From Lacticigenium naphthae DSM 19658 (lineage in GTDB: Bacteria > Bacillota > Bacilli > Lactobacillales > Carnobacteriaceae_A): a stretch of DNA of 64,000 nucleotides. This document shows, piece after piece, positions 5,952-14,653 of the stretch (position 1 is the stretch's first letter; every line of letters begins with the position of its first letter). Position numbers and translations under genes: made by a program. Location: NCBI RefSeq assembly GCF_000425865.1, contig NZ_AUEG01000004.1, forward strand, positions 1 through 64,000, read 5' to 3'. The notes below the pieces were generated by a model. The model saw nothing but the letters and a program-made list of their open reading frames with translations, was not told the DNA's origin and ran no database searches.

Positions 5952-6806
5952 ATGAAGAAAATAACTAAAAAGAAGGGATCATTCTTTATTATTGGGATTG
6001 CTTTGTTATTTTACTTCTTTTATTTTCAGAATAATGCCCTTGTGGTAAGTGAATATACCCTCGCTTCAGAAAAAATTCCACAACAGTTTGATGGATACAA
6101 AATTGTTCAACTATCCGATCTGCATAATAAGTCTTTTGGGGATGATCAAAGTGATTTAGTTGAAAAAGTGGAAGATTTAGAGCCCGATTCGATTGTATTC
6201 ACAGGTGATCTAGTAGATTCAAGGCGGTATGATGAAAAACCCAGTCTAGTGTTGATGGAAAGACTGGTTCAAATTGCACCAGTCTATTATGTGACAGGAA
6301 ATAATGAATGGTGGTCTGGAAAATTCCAGACACTCGAGATGCAATTAAAAAGCCTAGGTGTACTGGTGATGAGAAATACTACTGAAGACATTACAATTGG
6401 AACTGAAAAAATCGCAATGATCGGAATTGATGATCCAATCATTGAAGAACTCTATTTGGAAAGAGCAAATACGAAGGAGAATATCGTGAATGCACTTGAT
6501 GAAATAGAAGAAGAGACTGATTTTCAAATTCTCTTAGCACACAGACCCGAAATGTTTCCTTTGTATAGTGAATATGGATTTGATGTTGTTTTTTCAGGAC
6601 ACGCTCACGGTGGACAATTTAGAATTCCTTTCGTGGGAGGTTTGGTTGCTCCTGGTCAAGGTTTGTTTCCAAAGTATACATCTGGAACGCACGAAATGAA
6701 TAACACGACAATGATCGTAAACAGAGGGCTAGGGAACAGTATCATTCCGATAAGGATCTTTAATCGCCCGGAAATTGTCACAGTGACATTGAATTCTGCT
6801 AACTAA
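5952..6806 (+). CDS. Membrane-anchored metallophosphoesterase (YkuE-like)
   Basis: A calcineurin-like phosphoesterase of 284 residues with a single N-terminal membrane segment (residues about 10-27) after lysines, so the catalytic domain faces outside. Metal-site motifs appear in order: LSDLHN, FTGDLVD, GNNEW, LLAHRPE and SGHAHGGQ. The family includes YkuE and YaeI, some linked to cell-envelope lipid phosphates, but the substrate is unknown. The ATG at 5952 follows AAAGGAGG. It is monocistronic. Confidence 0.88.
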   Translation: MKKITKKKGSFFIIGIALLFYFFYFQNNALVVSEYTLASEKIPQQFDGYKIVQLSDLHNKSFGDDQSDLVEKVEDLEPDSIVFTGDLVDSRRYDEKPSLVLMERLVQIAPVYYVTGNNEWWSGKFQTLEMQLKSLGVLVMRNTTEDITIGTEKIAMIGIDDPIIEELYLERANTKENIVNALDEIEEETDFQILLAHRPEMFPLYSEYGFDVVFSGHAHGGQFRIPFVGGLVAPGQGLFPKYTSGTHEMNNTTMIVNRGLGNSIIPIRIFNRPEIVTVTLNSAN

Positions 6807-6959
6807 ATCAGCACCAAGAGAAAAGATAGAAAATAGTGAAGTAAAAAATATTTTATTTGGCTATTTACCATTAATAATAAAGACTTTTCAATCGATATGA
6901 TGAAAATCAAAGAGCAGCTCAAATTGATTATCAAAAATCTATCTGCTATACTTTTGAGT

Positions 6960-7100
6960 ATCGATAAGCAGTACTGAATAAAAAATTGAAGACATACTTA
7001 AAATGGAATCCGGTTAGAATCCGGGACGGTCCCGCCACTGTGATAGCATCTTGCTTAAGTCAGGTCTTTTTTACTGTGGTTCTATTCCGTTTTATACTTC
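6960..7100 (+). promoter_or_regulatory. Cobalamin (B12) riboswitch upstream of the nrd operon
   Basis: The conserved core is plain: GGAATCCGG, GAATCCGGGACGGTCCCGCC and CACTGTGA at 7005-7042, then the B12-box-like AGTCAGGTC at 7058-7066. AAAATGGAAT (7000-7009) pairs with ATTCCGTTTT (7085-7094) to close the domain. The 5' boundary is approximate, and the peripheral stems look shorter than in the largest class. By family knowledge adenosylcobalamin binding would favour the downstream terminator and switch off the genes. Confidence 0.9.
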
Positions 7101-7156
7101 GAGGCAAAGTATGAACAGCACCCTAGGAGTAGTATGCCTCTAGGGTGCTTTTTTTA
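7101..7156 (+). terminator. Riboswitch-controlled terminator with a candidate antiterminator
   Basis: AGCACCCTAG (7117-7126) pairs perfectly with CTAGGGTGCT (7140-7149) and is followed by TTTTTT. GAGGCA at 7101-7106 can instead pair with TGCCTC at 7135-7140, inside and overlapping the terminator, giving an alternative fold. This points to transcription attenuation before nrdH. Confidence 0.88.
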
Positions 7157-7220
7157 TATTTTAAAGTGGGCAGAACGGAACGAAGTGCAGAAATTAAACT
7201 AAAAAAAAGGAGAATGAAAT

Positions 7221-7454
7221 ATGACAAAGAAAATAATACTGTATACAAAAATAGGATGTGGTCAATGTCTGTTTACGAAAAAACAATTAGAAAAAATGCA
7301 CTTAGCTTTTGAAGAAAAAAATATCTCTCAGAATCCAGAATGGATAGATGAGGTTAAAGCATTGGGATTTCAAAGTCTCCCCGTTATTTCTATTGAAGGG
7401 GAAGAGCCTTTTAGTGGATACCAACCGGATAAGTTAGAAAAGTTGGTTATGTAG
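7221..7454 (+). CDS. nrdH: Glutaredoxin-like NrdH-redoxin
   Basis: A small redoxin of 77 residues that reduces the class Ib ribonucleotide reductase. The redox motif is CGQC (residues 13-16), and the family's SGYQPDKL stretch is near the C-terminus. AAAGGAG sits 8 bases before the ATG. It is the first gene after the B12 riboswitch and is separated from nrdI by one base, so it is translated as part of the nrdHIEF block. Confidence 0.95.
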   Translation: MTKKIILYTKIGCGQCLFTKKQLEKMHLAFEEKNISQNPEWIDEVKALGFQSLPVISIEGEEPFSGYQPDKLEKLVM

Positions 7455-7455
7455 T

Positions 7456-7848
7456 ATGCCAGCTATTGTTTACTTTTCTATCACAGGGCAAACGAAAAGA
7501 TTCGTAACGAAAATACCGAATGCAGAAGTAATCGAAATTGAACCACAAGATCCTTTTATAGAAATGGACAGAACGTACATACTCGTTGTGCCCACTTATG
7601 TCGAAGAAATGATCGAACCTGTTTTAGATTTCCTTGAAACAGGAAAAAATAGTGAATATTGTCTAGGAACATTTGGAAGTGGAAATCGAAATTTCGCACA
7701 GTTATTTTGTTTCACTGTTGACGAAATAGACAAGAAATACGGGATACCCGTTCTGCACAAATTCGAATTTCAAGGAACCCCAGCAGATATCAAAAAAATA
7801 GGAGAGGTGTTAGGGAATGAAAATAGAAAAGATCGATCAACAGTCTAA
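7456..7848 (+). CDS. nrdI: NrdI flavodoxin-like protein
   Basis: A 130-residue flavodoxin-type protein that generates the oxidant used to assemble the dimanganese-tyrosyl cofactor of NrdF. The FMN-binding loop near the N-terminus reads YFSITGQTKRF, and GTFGSGNRNF matches the second flavin loop. It overlaps nrdE by 32 bases, so the two are probably translationally coupled. Its presence supports a manganese-type class Ib enzyme. Confidence 0.95.
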   Translation: MPAIVYFSITGQTKRFVTKIPNAEVIEIEPQDPFIEMDRTYILVVPTYVEEMIEPVLDFLETGKNSEYCLGTFGSGNRNFAQLFCFTVDEIDKKYGIPVLHKFEFQGTPADIKKIGEVLGNENRKDRSTV

Positions 7849-10015
7849 AGTGACATATTATCAATTGAATAACCAGTTGAATATACCTGTGAATGGTCAG
7901 ATTCCATTAGTTAAAGATAAAGAGGCTGTAAAGCAGTATTTTTTGGAAGAAATAAATCAACATACGGTTTTCTTTCATAGCTTGGAAGAAAAAATTCACT
8001 ATCTTCTGAAATACGATTATATCGATGAAATGATTCTATTAAACTATTCTGAGAAAAATGAAGCACCCTATGATTGGGTATTCATTAAAAAGTTATTTAA
8101 ACAGATTTATGATCACAAATTTCGGTTTAAGAGCTTTATGGGAGCTTTCAAATTCTATGAACAATATGCTTTAAAAACCAATGACGGCAAAAAGTATCTA
8201 GAAAGATTCGAAGACCGTATTGCATTTACTGCTCTATTTTTAGCAGACGGAGATAAAAAACTGGCTTTGGATCTAGCTGAAGAGATGATTACTCAGAGAT
8301 TTCAGCCGGCCACACCTACTTTTCTAAATGCAGGTAAGAAAAGACGGGGAGAGTTGGTATCTTGTTACTTGATCGACCTTGATGACTCCATGCTTTCCAT
8401 AGCTAGAGGGATCAACTCTAGCTTACAATTGTCCAGAAAAGGCGGTGGAGTAGGTGTCAATCTATCCAATTTGCGAGCTGCAGGTGATCCGATAAAACAT
8501 ATCGAAAATGCCTCCTCTGGTGTGGTGCCGGTTATGAAGTTACTTGAAGATAGTTTTAGCTATAGTAACCAACTCGGTCAACGCAATGGTGCCGGAGCAG
8601 TTTATTTAAGTGTTTTCCATCCGGATATCTATGCTTTTTTATCGACAAAAAAAGAAAATGCCGATGAAAAAATCCGCGTTAAAACTCTTTCTTTAGGATT
8701 GACCGTTCCAGATAAATATTATGAATTGATAAAAACCAATCAGCCCATGTACTTATTTAGTCCCTATGATGTAGAACGAATATACGGAATACCCTTTTCT
8801 TATGTGGATCTTACAAAAGAATACGATAAGATGGTCAAGGATCCGGAAATCCAAAAGACAAAAATCAATGCAAGGGAACTGGAACAGGAAATATCTCGAC
8901 TGCAGCAAGAATCGGGTTACCCTTATATCATCAATATCGATACCGTAAACCGCCAAAATCCAGTAGATGGAAAAATTATCATGAGTAATTTATGTAGCGA
9001 AATATTTCAACCCCAGGAACCCTCTGTTTTAAATCCTGATTTATCTTATGAATCTACCGGAACAGATATCAGCTGTAACTTAGGGTCGACAAATATTGTC
9101 AATATGATAGAATCGCCAGACTTCAAAAAATCGATTGAGATTGCGACACGCGCGTTGACTACTGTTACAAAAAATAGTGCGATCGAAGAAGTCCCTACAA
9201 TCAAACGGGGCAACGACTTGTATCACACAATTGGTTTGGGTGCGATGGGGCTGCATACAACTTTTGCGTTAAATCAAATCGAATATGGATCTCCGGAATC
9301 ACTTGAATTCACCGATGTTTATTTTAGAACACTCAACTATTATTCCTTGGTAGCAAGTAATAAAATTGCTCAGGAAAAAGGAGAGACTTTTAAAGATTTT
9401 GATAAATCAACCTATGCAGAAGGTTCCTATTTTGATAGCTATATACAAGAATCGCTCCACTATCGGTTTGAAAAAACGAAAGACATCTTCAAAGGCATCA
9501 CAGTTCCAACAATAGAAAACTGGAAAGAGTTAAAAGGGAACGTTAAGAAATACGGGCTGTATCATCGAAATAGATTGGCGATCGCACCAACAGGTTCTAT
9601 TTCCTATATCAATGAAACGAGTGCTTCTCTGCACCCGATCACACAAAGAATTGAACATCGTCAAGAAAAAACAATCGGAGCTATTTACTATCCTGCTCCC
9701 TATCTATCGGATGAAACGATTGACTATTACACATCCGCCTATGATATGGATCAAAGAAAAATCATTGATTTGTATGCCGCCGCGCAAAAACACATAGATC
9801 AAGGGATGAGTTTAACGCTATTTATTCGTTCTGAATTGCCAAAAGGATTGTATGAATGGAAAAAGAACAATGCGCAGAAATTGACTACAAGAGATTTGAA
9901 TAGACTACGCAACTATGCTTATTCCAAAAAAATCAAATCTCTTTATTATGTGAGAACGTATACTGACGATGGATCCATTATTGGGGCAAATAGTTGTGAA
10001 AGCTGCATGGTTTGA
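7817..10015 (+). CDS. nrdE: Class Ib ribonucleotide reductase, large subunit
   Basis: The 732-residue catalytic subunit reduces NDPs to dNDPs. It starts inside nrdI with GGAGAGG 9 bases upstream. Signatures include SCYLIDLDDSM (first active-site Cys), the glycine loop RKGGGVGVNLSNLRAAG, the NLCSEIFQP segment with the thiyl-radical Cys, CNLGSTN, and the mobile C-terminal redox tail CESCMV. There is no N-terminal ATP-cone, as expected for NrdE, so activity-site control by dATP is probably absent. Confidence 0.97.
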   Translation: MKIEKIDQQSKVTYYQLNNQLNIPVNGQIPLVKDKEAVKQYFLEEINQHTVFFHSLEEKIHYLLKYDYIDEMILLNYSEKNEAPYDWVFIKKLFKQIYDHKFRFKSFMGAFKFYEQYALKTNDGKKYLERFEDRIAFTALFLADGDKKLALDLAEEMITQRFQPATPTFLNAGKKRRGELVSCYLIDLDDSMLSIARGINSSLQLSRKGGGVGVNLSNLRAAGDPIKHIENASSGVVPVMKLLEDSFSYSNQLGQRNGAGAVYLSVFHPDIYAFLSTKKENADEKIRVKTLSLGLTVPDKYYELIKTNQPMYLFSPYDVERIYGIPFSYVDLTKEYDKMVKDPEIQKTKINARELEQEISRLQQESGYPYIINIDTVNRQNPVDGKIIMSNLCSEIFQPQEPSVLNPDLSYESTGTDISCNLGSTNIVNMIESPDFKKSIEIATRALTTVTKNSAIEEVPTIKRGNDLYHTIGLGAMGLHTTFALNQIEYGSPESLEFTDVYFRTLNYYSLVASNKIAQEKGETFKDFDKSTYAEGSYFDSYIQESLHYRFEKTKDIFKGITVPTIENWKELKGNVKKYGLYHRNRLAIAPTGSISYINETSASLHPITQRIEHRQEKTIGAIYYPAPYLSDETIDYYTSAYDMDQRKIIDLYAAAQKHIDQGMSLTLFIRSELPKGLYEWKKNNAQKLTTRDLNRLRNYAYSKKIKSLYYVRTYTDDGSIIGANSCESCMV

Positions 10016-10028
10016 GGAGGAGAAAGCA

Positions 10029-10991
10029 ATGAAAAAATATTTGCATTATCAAGCGATCGATTGGAATAAACTAGAAGAGACCATCGACAAACATACTTGG
10101 GAAAAACTTACTTCGCAATTTTGGTTGGATACCCGTATACCTGTCTCCAACGACTTGGATGATTGGAGACAATTGTCTTTAGAAGAAAGGGATGTAGTCA
10201 ACAAAGCTTTTGGAGGATTGACTTTACTGGATACACTCCAATCAGAAGTGGGAGCGAGTGTCATGAAACAAGATGTTCGTACCCAGCATGAAGAAGCAGT
10301 ATTAAATAATATACTCTTTATGGAATCTGTTCATGCAAAAAGTTACAGCACGATTTTTATTTCATTAAATGAAAATCGAAAAATCGAAGAAATATTTGAC
10401 TGGACGAATCAGAATGAACGTTTACAGTATAAAGCCAAAAGAATCAAAACGATTTATGATACAGGGACTCCTTTACAGAAAAAGATTGCCAGTGTGTTTT
10501 TGGAGTCTTTCTTATTCTATAGTGGGTTCTATACCCCGCTGTGGTATTTAGGAAATAATCAGTTGCCGAATGTGGCTGAAATCATCAAACTGATTATTCG
10601 GGATGAATCAGTCCATGGAACTTATCTGGGATATAAATTTCAGCTAGGGTATAAAGAGTTAACTGAAGAAGAACAAGCTGATCTGCGTGACTGGATGTAT
10701 TCTTTGCTTTTTGATTTATTAGAAAATGAATTCGTCTATACGGAAGAACTGTATGATACCGTTGGCTGGACTCAAGAAGTGAAAGTGTTTGTACAATACA
10801 ATGCAAATAAAGCTTTGCAGAATTTAGGGTTTGAATCGCTATTTCAAGAGGCAACAGAAAAAGAGATCAATCCAATCGTAATGAATGGTCTTTCAACAGA
10901 TACGAATAATCATGACTTTTTCTCGCAGGTCGGTTCTGGATATTTAATGGGGGAAGTTGAGGCTATGGAAGAGGATGACTATGATTTTTAG
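10029..10991 (+). CDS. nrdF: Class Ib ribonucleotide reductase, small (radical) subunit
   Basis: This 320-residue ferritin-like subunit carries the tyrosyl radical. Metal ligands are visible in LLDTLQSE (Asp), NNILFMESVHAKSYS (Glu, His and the radical-site Tyr), ASVFLESFLFYSG (Glu) and IIRDESVHGTY (Glu, His). The radical Tyr is kept, so this is not the metal-free variant. The ATG at 10029 follows GAGGAGGAG just after the nrdE stop; an upstream in-frame ATG at 9969 lies inside nrdE and has no such site. It is followed without a terminator by nrdD. Confidence 0.97.
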   Translation: MKKYLHYQAIDWNKLEETIDKHTWEKLTSQFWLDTRIPVSNDLDDWRQLSLEERDVVNKAFGGLTLLDTLQSEVGASVMKQDVRTQHEEAVLNNILFMESVHAKSYSTIFISLNENRKIEEIFDWTNQNERLQYKAKRIKTIYDTGTPLQKKIASVFLESFLFYSGFYTPLWYLGNNQLPNVAEIIKLIIRDESVHGTYLGYKFQLGYKELTEEEQADLRDWMYSLLFDLLENEFVYTEELYDTVGWTQEVKVFVQYNANKALQNLGFESLFQEATEKEINPIVMNGLSTDTNNHDFFSQVGSGYLMGEVEAMEEDDYDF

Positions 10992-11046
10992 CTGACAAAA
11001 ACAGATTCTAGAAAAACTATTACTGTCAGAACAAAGGGGGATCAGA

Positions 11047-13224
11047 ATGGAAGAACTGGGATCGAGACATAGAAACGATGTGCAGTATTATGTTATTAAA
11101 AGGGATGGAAAAAAACAGTTGTATTCAACAAATAAGTTAATACTTTCCCTATCTAAACTTTTGAAAGAAGATAAAAAAGCTATTGAAAAGATTAAAATGA
11201 TCATTGAAAAAGAGGTAGAGTTTTTAGTAAAGGAACAAGGAAAAATTTCCGCTGTTCAGCTTTCCACTATCATTTGTACTTCTTTAGAAAACGGAGGTTT
11301 CAAGGATGCTAGGGGTTCATATGAAAAGTTTCAGCGAGATAAACAGCAGAATTTTGATAATAACAGGAATGTACAATATAAAATTGCCGAACTGGAAGCG
11401 AAAGAGGCCACTGTTGTCAACGAGAATGCAAATAAAGACAGTAGAATATTCAATACTCAACGCGATTTAACAGCTGGAGTCGTTTCCAAGACAATGGGAC
11501 TGAAACGACTACCCGATCATGTAGCGAAAGCCCATGAAAAAGGGGATATACATTATCATGATTTGGATTATACGCCCTATTTACCGATGACTAATTGTTG
11601 TTTGATCGATTTTCAGACAATGTTTGAAAAAGGGTTTTACATCGGGAATGCAGAAGTTGAATCACCAAAATCTATTCAAACTGCGACAGCTCAGACAGCA
11701 CAAATTATAGCCAATGTGGCTTCAAGTCAGTATGGCGGATGTACATTTGATAGAATTGATGAAGTGCTGGCTCCTTTTGCACGACTGAACTATGAAAAAC
11801 ACTTGAATACAGCAACCAAATGGATAGATGACCCTGAACAAAGAGAATTATTTTCTAGAGAGAGAACCAAAAAGGATATATACGATGCGATGCAAAGTTT
11901 AGAATATGAGATCAATACATTATATACTTCTCAAGGTCAAACCCCCTTCACAAGTATCGGGTTCGGTTTGGGAACGAATTGGATTGAAAAAGAAATCCAA
12001 AAAGCCATCTTGAATGTGCGAATAAAAGGATTGGGCAAAGAAAAAAGAACGGCTATTTTCCCCAAATTAATTTTCAGCTTAAAAACTGAGTTGAATCTTA
12101 AACCAGAGGATCCTAATTATGACATCAAAGTGCTAGCTTTAGAGTGTTCTACTAAACGTATGTATCCCGATGTATTGAACTACGATAAATTAGTTGAACT
12201 AACCGGTAGCTTTAAAGCACCAATGGGTTGTCGTTCTTTTCTGCAAGCTTGGCAGGATACTAAAGGTAATGAAATCAGCGCGGGTAGAATGAATTTGGGT
12301 GTGGTAAGTTTAAATATTCCCCGTATTAGTCTGGAAGCAGAAGGGAATAGGGAAGAGTTCTGGACATTATTTGATGAAAAGATGAAAATCATGCATGATG
12401 CATTAGTCTTTAAAGCAGAACGCGTCATGGAGGCCCAACCAGAAAATGCACCTATTTTATATAAATATGGTGCATTTAAAGACCGATTGGATGCTGATGA
12501 TAAAGTAAAAAGTTTATTTATCAATCGTCGAGCAACCGTATCAATCGGATATATTGGACTATATGAAACAGCCACTGCTTTCTTTGGGCCAGATTGGGAA
12601 AATAATAACAGAGCAAAAACTTTTACCTTTGACATAGTCAAACGCTTAAAAACCTATGCAGAACGTTGGTCAATAGAAACAGATTTACATTTCAGTGTTT
12701 ATTCTACACCAAGTGAAAGTCTGACTGATCGTTTTTGTCGCTTGGACAAAAAGAAGTTTGGAAGGATAAAGGATGTAACAGATAAAGACTATTACACAAA
12801 CAGTTTCCACTATGATGTCAGGAAAAATCCAACTCCTTTTGAAAAAATAGATTTTGAAAAGGATTATCCTAGATATTCTAGTGGAGGATTTATTCATTAC
12901 TGCGAATATCCGAAACTACAAAGCAATCCGAAAGCTTTAGAAGCAGTATGGGACTATGCCTATCCCCGCATTGCTTATCTAGGAACCAATACTCCTATTG
13001 ATCATTGTTACCAGTGTGGATTTGAAGGAGATTTTCATCCGACAGCTCATGGATTTAAATGTCCACAATGTAAAAATACTGATCCGGAAACATGCGATGT
13101 AGTCAAAAGAACATGTGGTTATTTAGGTAATCCTCAAAAACGGCCGATGATAGCCGGGCGGCACAAAGAAATTGCTTCTCGTGTGAAGCATATGAAAAGA
13201 AGTGAGTATAATGAATCCAATTGA
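11047..13224 (+). CDS. nrdD: Anaerobic (class III) ribonucleoside-triphosphate reductase
   Basis: A 725-residue glycyl radical enzyme that reduces NTPs without oxygen. It has an N-terminal ATP-cone (residues about 15-105), which implies dATP feedback. The C-terminal zinc site is formed by CYQCG and CPQC pairs. The glycyl radical motif RTCGYLG places the radical at Gly691. AAAGGGGG precedes the start. The 55 bases after nrdF show no T-tailed hairpin, so it is likely co-transcribed with nrdHIEF. nrdG overlaps its end. Confidence 0.96.
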   Translation: MEELGSRHRNDVQYYVIKRDGKKQLYSTNKLILSLSKLLKEDKKAIEKIKMIIEKEVEFLVKEQGKISAVQLSTIICTSLENGGFKDARGSYEKFQRDKQQNFDNNRNVQYKIAELEAKEATVVNENANKDSRIFNTQRDLTAGVVSKTMGLKRLPDHVAKAHEKGDIHYHDLDYTPYLPMTNCCLIDFQTMFEKGFYIGNAEVESPKSIQTATAQTAQIIANVASSQYGGCTFDRIDEVLAPFARLNYEKHLNTATKWIDDPEQRELFSRERTKKDIYDAMQSLEYEINTLYTSQGQTPFTSIGFGLGTNWIEKEIQKAILNVRIKGLGKEKRTAIFPKLIFSLKTELNLKPEDPNYDIKVLALECSTKRMYPDVLNYDKLVELTGSFKAPMGCRSFLQAWQDTKGNEISAGRMNLGVVSLNIPRISLEAEGNREEFWTLFDEKMKIMHDALVFKAERVMEAQPENAPILYKYGAFKDRLDADDKVKSLFINRRATVSIGYIGLYETATAFFGPDWENNNRAKTFTFDIVKRLKTYAERWSIETDLHFSVYSTPSESLTDRFCRLDKKKFGRIKDVTDKDYYTNSFHYDVRKNPTPFEKIDFEKDYPRYSSGGFIHYCEYPKLQSNPKALEAVWDYAYPRIAYLGTNTPIDHCYQCGFEGDFHPTAHGFKCPQCKNTDPETCDVVKRTCGYLGNPQKRPMIAGRHKEIASRVKHMKRSEYNESN

Positions 13225-13765
13225 ATGGACAACAAAACAATGGAGTCAGAATTTTATTGCTGACTATAAGCCGTATAACTTTGTGGATGGAGAAGGAGTT
13301 AGATGTAGCCTGTATGTCAGCGGGTGTCCATTTGCGTGTAAAGGCTGCTACAATAAAGCGGCACAAAGCTTTTCTTACGGAACGCTTTATACAAAAGAAG
13401 TAGAAGAACAAATCATAGAAGATCTGAGTGCTGATTATTGTCAAGGACTGACTTTACTAGGAGGAGAACCCTTTTTAAATACAGATGTGACAATTCCTCT
13501 TTCTAAAAGAGTGAAGAACACTTTTGGTGATACAAAAGATATTTGGTCCTGGTCGGGTTATACGTATGAGGAAATTTTAGCTTCCTCACAAGATAAACGG
13601 GAACTCTTAGATACTATTGATGTTCTTGTTGATGGTCGATTTGTACTTGATCAATTTGATTTGGGTCTCGATTTTAGAGGAAGTAAAAACCAACGTATTA
13701 TTGATGTGCAATCTTCTTTAAAGAAAAAGAAAGTTGTCCTATGGAAACAAGGCGGATACAAATGA
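13211..13765 (+). CDS. nrdG: Anaerobic RNR activating protein (radical SAM)
   Basis: This radical-SAM activase installs the glycyl radical on NrdD. The CPFACKGC motif gives the CxxxCxxC cluster site, with LLGGEP downstream for SAM binding. An ATG at 13211 gives 184 residues; a GTG at 13202 three codons earlier is also possible. Either start overlaps the nrdD end, so translation is probably coupled. The gene closes the nrd operon before a hairpin terminator at 13949. Confidence 0.95.
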   Translation: MNPIEWTTKQWSQNFIADYKPYNFVDGEGVRCSLYVSGCPFACKGCYNKAAQSFSYGTLYTKEVEEQIIEDLSADYCQGLTLLGGEPFLNTDVTIPLSKRVKNTFGDTKDIWSWSGYTYEEILASSQDKRELLDTIDVLVDGRFVLDQFDLGLDFRGSKNQRIIDVQSSLKKKKVVLWKQGGYK

Positions 13766-13948
13766 AGATAGAGAAGATTGTGTGGGTTGAATAGCTAGGG
13801 CAAGTATAGAAAAGAGTATCACAAAAGAACGAAGAACTCGTCGAATGATGAAAAGCCCTAATATCAAAACTGCTTGACGTGGACGTAGAGTCATAAAAAA
13901 ACAAAAAAGTTAAACTAGGTATAAGTTGAACCTCACCTTTTTTATGCC

Positions 13949-13992
13949 AGCCTTCTAGCGACTACTGTTTGGTCATGGAAGGCTAGTTTTTT
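13949..13992 (+). terminator. Intrinsic terminator of the nrd operon
   Basis: AGCCTTC at 13949-13955 pairs with GAAGGCT at 13978-13984 and is followed by AGTTTTTT. The loop is long (22 nt). The T-run overlaps the stop of the convergent alkD-like gene. Confidence 0.7.
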
Positions 13993-14653
13993 ACTTGTCT
14001 AAATATTTACTGGCTTCTTGAATACTTAATGGATGAAGTTTTTTTTGATATTTGGATAAAAAAGATCGGACCCAGGCTGGATTTGTCTTGCTGTAGTCAC
14101 GCAGACTCCATCCAATGGCTTTATTGATGAAGAATTCAGTGTCTCCTAAATTTGCTACAATGATTTTTTCAAGCAACGCGACATCTGTTTGTTCTTTTCG
14201 GTGCCGCTGATGGTTGATTGCGATACGTCTCAGCCAAATGCTATCGGCAGTACTCCATTCGATCAAAGTGGCATTTACTTCGGGTTCCTCCAGTGCGATT
14301 TTTCCAATGACTTTATCCAAGCTATCGATGGTATCCCACCATGGTTTGGTCAAAGCTAATGCTTTGATTTTGGGAATATCATTGGCGGCTAATGCCTTCT
14401 GTTTTAGATTAAGGTAATCAGCTCCTACATACTGATATTCTCGGTAAGGGGAGTCCCAACATTCTTTCAGGAATGTCCAATCGACCTCTTTTTCTTTGCG
14501 GGCTTCCTTAAAGAAAGCGCGTGTGATCTCCCGTCGTTTCTCGGCCTGGATACCGAGAAAGTTAAATTGGTCACGCATATAGGCACGCATGTGTACGGCT
14601 TTGGTGGAATCTCTATGTGCTACTAATTCATCAAATAATTGTTGCTTGTTCAA
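13991..14653 (-). CDS. DNA alkylation repair protein, AlkD-like HEAT-repeat glycosylase
   Basis: A 220-residue alpha-helical HEAT-like protein of the AlkC/AlkD family, which excises bulky or cationic alkylated bases without base flipping. The aromatic/acidic cleft residues have plausible equivalents: WWDTID (Trp106, Asp110), WLRR (Arg143) and GWSLRDYSK (Trp182), inferred by alignment from memory. The length fits the family. The start follows AAAGGAG on the minus strand. It lies alone between the nrd operon and the sugar locus. Confidence 0.88.
   Translation of the reverse strand: MNKQQLFDELVAHRDSTKAVHMRAYMRDQFNFLGIQAEKRREITRAFFKEARKEKEVDWTFLKECWDSPYREYQYVGADYLNLKQKALAANDIPKIKALALTKPWWDTIDSLDKVIGKIALEEPEVNATLIEWSTADSIWLRRIAINHQRHRKEQTDVALLEKIIVANLGDTEFFINKAIGWSLRDYSKTNPAWVRSFLSKYQKKLHPLSIQEASKYLDK

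Follow-up and report, generated by a model that had tools for sequence, protein, structure and literature searches.

A single predicted adenosylcobalamin riboswitch ahead of both class Ib and class III ribonucleotide reductase genes in Lacticigenium naphthae

In the 64,000-bp stretch of the Lacticigenium naphthae DSM 19658 genome analysed here (the window), one adenosylcobalamin (AdoCbl) riboswitch with a terminator was found ahead of nrdHIEF, and nrdDG follows without an intervening terminator. This arrangement, and its extent (positions 6960–13765), had been proposed in a first-pass annotation and were confirmed by the Rfam match, the stability of the leader hairpin and reading of the nrdF-nrdD gap. 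Because the genome also encodes NrdJ, a class II ribonucleotide reductase (RNR) that could replace both enzymes of the operon, the cell probably swaps RNR enzymes according to vitamin supply. A B12-dependent isozyme switch, in which AdoCbl would stop the whole of nrdHIEFDG and NrdJ would take over, is in our judgement a highly probable reading.

The principle that B12 shuts down B12-independent RNRs in genomes with NrdJ is already known. In Streptomyces coelicolor, an AdoCbl riboswitch turns down the B12-independent nrdABS operon in a genome with NrdJ (Borovok 2006, as described in PMC4991794 and cited in PMC4342826); there the switch governs class Ia only and is not followed by a class III gene, whereas the window operon combines classes Ib and III. 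In Propionibacterium acnes, cobalamin riboswitches were reported on both nrdAB and nrdDG, with nrdJ present, and replacement was proposed by the authors (PMC3848588), but these are two operons with two riboswitches and a class I enzyme of the nrdAB type, compared to one switch and class Ib in the window. The B12 element ahead of nrdDG in Desulfovibrio vulgaris and Desulfuromonas, which carry nrdJ in the genome (PMC545781), concerns class III only, and the AdoCbl riboswitch ahead of the B12-independent nrdAB of Bacillus methanolicus (PMC4342826) concerns class I only, both unlike the window operon. Thus, B12 switches on single RNR operons are indeed known from other groups (Streptomyces, Desulfovibrio, B. 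methanolicus), as the first-pass annotation had stated. Its further statement that joint control of aerobic and anaerobic enzymes is unusual holds only in part: joint control by two switches has precedents in P. acnes and in nrdJ-bearing relatives, whereas a single switch over both classes is unusual and was not found in the searchable literature, yet recurs in three other genomes of the order (G147, G248, and G340). The novelty would therefore lie in one switch ahead of two RNR classes in what appears from sequence to be one transcription unit, recurring in three genera. The choice between RNRs is usually framed by oxygen; here a vitamin would decide for both oxygen regimes via one RNA element. 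If so, the cell would rely on NrdJ alone at any oxygen level when B12 is present, and B12 supplied by neighbours is predicted to alter which RNR inhibitors or metal shortages the cell tolerates.

The aptamer (6977–7121, forward strand, as are all features below in the window) matched the AdoCbl riboswitch model RF01482 at full length (model positions 1–149; cmscan 89.2 bits compared to a gathering score of 50 bits, E 2.6e-15), and this was the only Rfam hit within the 64-kb window. About 25 bp upstream, a candidate promoter with an extended −10 element (TTGATT-17-TATACT, 6924–6952; TGcTATACT) was found to match the consensus at 9 of 12 positions, with TG ahead of the −10 box; its position is the main argument for it, since sites in the promoter scan were no commoner than in shuffled sequences. 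Directly 3′ of the aptamer and 5′ of the first gene, nrdH, lies the intrinsic terminator of the expression platform (7117–7155; hairpin 7117–7149, U-tract to 7155), with a folding energy of −20.1 kcal/mol and a z-score of −4.38; none of 200 shuffles was equally stable. The L13 loop of the aptamer (GAGGCA, 7101–7106) is the complement of TGCCTC at 7135–7140, which spans the loop and the 3′ arm of the terminator. Of the 16 distinct leaders with a terminator among the loci compared, 14 had such a complement to L13 (TGYCT ahead of the U-tract), whereas 500 shuffles gave 1.3 on average and never more than 6.

All six genes of the operon scored above curated family cut-offs. The class Ib part consists of nrdH (7221–7454; glutaredoxin-like redoxin, TIGR02194, 86 bits with a cut-off of 85.75), nrdI (7456–7848; flavoprotein for class Ib assembly, TIGR00333, 86 bits), nrdE (7817–10015; alpha subunit, TIGR04170, 1083.8 bits), the start of which overlaps the end of nrdI, and, after 13 bp, nrdF (10029–10991; beta subunit, TIGR04171, 472.9 bits). 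These are followed by nrdD (11047–13224; NF006732, 1103 bits), encoding an anaerobic RNR with an ATP cone and a glycyl-radical domain (PF13597, PF01228 at 94 bits, and PF03477), and by nrdG (about 13211–13765; radical-SAM activase, TIGR02491, 177 bits), which overlaps the end of nrdD. Both the glycyl-radical domain and the NrdG activase place the enzyme in class III. In a genome scan, relatives of this NrdD at 60–66% identity were found in Enterococcus and Lactobacillaceae.

The gap between the nrdF stop and the nrdD start measures 55 bp (10992–11046) and contained no terminator, no TTGTGAA motif and no NrdR-like box; by reading, it showed a weak fold and lacked a U-tract. The mechanical scan listed no forward-strand terminators in 6600–14100, a scan whose 8-nt loop limit misses the leader terminator too. 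An imperfect inverted repeat (CTGACA…TGTCAG, 10994–11034) with a weak fold was also observed in the gap. This junction suggests that nrdF and nrdD may be co-transcribed and that nrdHIEFDG would form a single transcription unit.

Searches of the remaining genome (a 2.13-Mb assembly in 32 contigs with 99.96% completeness) identified the nrdJ gene that the first-pass annotation had expected elsewhere (G000:C13:23817–26411; NF005991, 1567 bits with a cut-off of 854). Class II of the RTPR type (TIGR02505) was rejected, as it gave only weak partial matches to the same NrdJ. NrdR-like boxes were found upstream of nrdJ (L007, 9180 with three mismatches and 9255 with two), and none was found in the window operon at up to four mismatches. 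Near nrdJ, a THF riboswitch (RF01831, 73.9 bits; L007, 4878–4978) lies 5′ of a gene for an ECF S-component that is likely specific for folate. The genome yielded a single class I alpha subunit gene (nrdE) and a single nrdD, both in the nrdHIEFDG operon; thus, every B12-independent RNR found sits behind the one switch. The suggested search for B12 uptake or synthesis genes yielded a salvage set: a second AdoCbl riboswitch (C1:572978–573122, 105 bits) heads genes for a DUF4430 protein and an ECF-type S-component, for which cobalamin is the presumed substrate, and a PduO-type cobalamin adenosyltransferase (PduO_Nterm, 198 bits) is encoded just 5′ of this locus. Since CobQ, one marker of de novo B12 synthesis, gave no match above cut-off in the genome, salvage is likelier than synthesis, and the organism probably salvages B12.

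According to the proposed mechanism, cobalamin would enter through the ECF system, the PduO-type enzyme would convert it to AdoCbl, and AdoCbl would bind the leader RNA. In cobalamin riboswitches, a kissing contact between L13 and L5 reports the ligand-bound state (PMC9600662). With ligand bound, L5 would hold L13 and the terminator at 7117–7155 would form, stopping the entire nrdHIEFDG transcript; the oxygen-indifferent NrdJ would then make deoxynucleotides with or without air. With the cofactor absent, L13 (GAGGCA) is predicted to pair with UGCCUC of the terminator, so that the polymerase would read through and both B12-independent enzymes would be produced, with class Ib serving growth in air and class III growth without it. 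Antitermination by L13-terminator pairing is the simplest model suggested by the complementarity. Minimum-energy folding of the unliganded full-length leader still favoured the terminator, which means that any antitermination would need to be under kinetic control. When leaders of nascent length were folded freely, no clean antiterminator emerged for the ligand-free state.

Among 27 genomes of the family, RF01482 was found in six (G000, the window genome, and G015, G016, G018, G019, and G021), all with nrdJ, and no B12 riboswitch was found in any of the 20 genomes that lack nrdJ. The seventh genome with nrdJ (G017, 71% complete) carries it as a contig-edge fragment. RF01482 alone missed the switches on nrdHIEF (G015, G016, and G019) and on nrdGD (G021), for which RF00174 was required; with both models, the B12-independent RNR genes found in the six genomes were all located behind B12 switches. 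G015 carries a switch on nrdHIEF and lacks nrdD, G016 and G019 carry separate switches on nrdHIEF and on nrdDG, the incomplete genome G018 carries one on nrdDG, and in G021 one switch precedes a glutaredoxin-NrdB/NrdA pair and a second precedes nrdGD. Thus, nrdJ-bearing relatives as a rule place nrdDG under B12 control, since standalone nrdDG has its own B12 riboswitch in G016, G018, G019, and G021. In G021, the switched NrdB (L042, 2194–5665) has an N-terminal glutaredoxin domain and is followed by a short NrdA; the L13 of this leader is TTCGAGTAAAG, without the usual GGC, and its terminator retains TGCCTC. The G015 nrdJ (L065, 2976–6807) contains an interruption of approximately 1.2 kb, within which an ORF of 302 aa shows LAGLIDADG-like motifs. 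The insert is probably an intron carrying a homing endonuclease, and no Rfam intron match was reported for it. In G019, nrdJ itself lies 3′ of a B12 switch, but control by this switch was discounted, as the ECF gene and nrdJ are separated by a hairpin followed by a T-run, by a promoter-like stretch and by NrdR-like sites.

In 18 relatives without nrdJ and without a switch, nrdHIEF also adjoins nrdDG. NrdR-like boxes, called with an NrdR consensus, were found 5′ of nrdH in 17 of these clusters, and the nrdF-nrdD gap measured about 100–260 bp to the likely start codon, with TTGTGAA (a possible Rex-type half-site) in 16 of 18 (L046–L063) and a conserved hairpin seen by eye; the 55-bp gap of the window lacks both the hairpin and the motif. 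Compared to these clusters, the window operon reads as one in which a single riboswitch took the place of NrdR and of a distinct nrdD promoter. Since close relatives show no-switch, two-switch and one-switch wiring, the evolution of isozyme control is testable in this group.

The separate upstream region of nrdD in relatives, usually with TTGTGAA, indicates that nrdD was probably once independent, and it favours a reading in which the riboswitch governs nrdHIEF alone in practice and nrdDG is expressed mainly from an internal promoter, escaping B12. A promoter-like match (TTGAGG-17-TATGAT, 10957–10985) is present inside the end of nrdF, where it encodes the NrdF C-terminus, but such matches were no commoner than in shuffled sequences. 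In the window, this upstream region of nrdD is missing and the terminator-free gap spans 55 bp, and the junction is even tighter in G147, G248, and G340; where nrdDG stands alone in nrdJ-bearing relatives, it carries a B12 switch of its own. We therefore regard expression of nrdDG outside B12 control as unlikely. Still less credible, and in our view very improbable, is that the switch is an evolutionary leftover with a defunct aptamer or terminator and constitutive expression of the operon. The RNR switch does score lower than the transporter switch of the same genome (89 vs 105 bits), but all conserved core elements of the aptamer align at full length, the terminator greatly exceeds shuffled sequences in stability, L13 and the terminator have kept their complementarity, and nrdJ is retained.

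Across 395 genomes of the order, RF01482 matches were found in 91 and nrdJ in 71, and the genes downstream were read for most switches. As in the window, one B12 riboswitch is followed by nrdHIEF and then nrdDG in G147, G248, and G340, each with nrdJ elsewhere; these belong to two genera of another family (G147/G248 and G340), giving three genera in all. They differ from the window, with its RF01482 aptamer, in that the G340 aptamer is of the RF00174 type and that of G147 scores best as AdoCbl-II, and their NrdD proteins are of other lineages than the window NrdD. Other switched RNR operons were nrdHIEF in G304 and nrdIEF-nrdH in G196 and G328, and these three also carry nrdJ. Overall, nrdJ was present in 12 of 12 genomes of the order found with a B12 riboswitch heading RNR genes.

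In the NrdE and NrdF trees, the proteins of switched operons, drawn from two families, were set apart by a branch with 100/100 support. The NrdD sequences of switched operons were not grouped (five label changes, bootstrap 4–5), and the window NrdD grouped with its own family (86/99). Given this contrast between NrdE and NrdF on the one hand and their linked NrdD on the other, nrdDG probably became joined to switched nrdHIEF on more than one occasion; this is a lean rather than proof, as the NrdD tree includes two long branches (G021 and G340). We give about even chances to the wider proposal that, in the window lineage, cofactor supply took over from NrdR and a separate nrdD promoter, with one RNA gating both enzymes, and that this wiring arose more than once. 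In G340 (L193, 4590–6443), the start of NrdD nearly coincides with the stop codon of nrdF, its alignment covers only approximately 610 of 725 residues, and the N-terminal ATP cone is apparently absent. Besides, a selenocysteine tRNA gene was observed directly 5′ of the switched nrdHIEF-nrdDG operon in G147 (L167, 217–309) and G248 (L169, 182–274).
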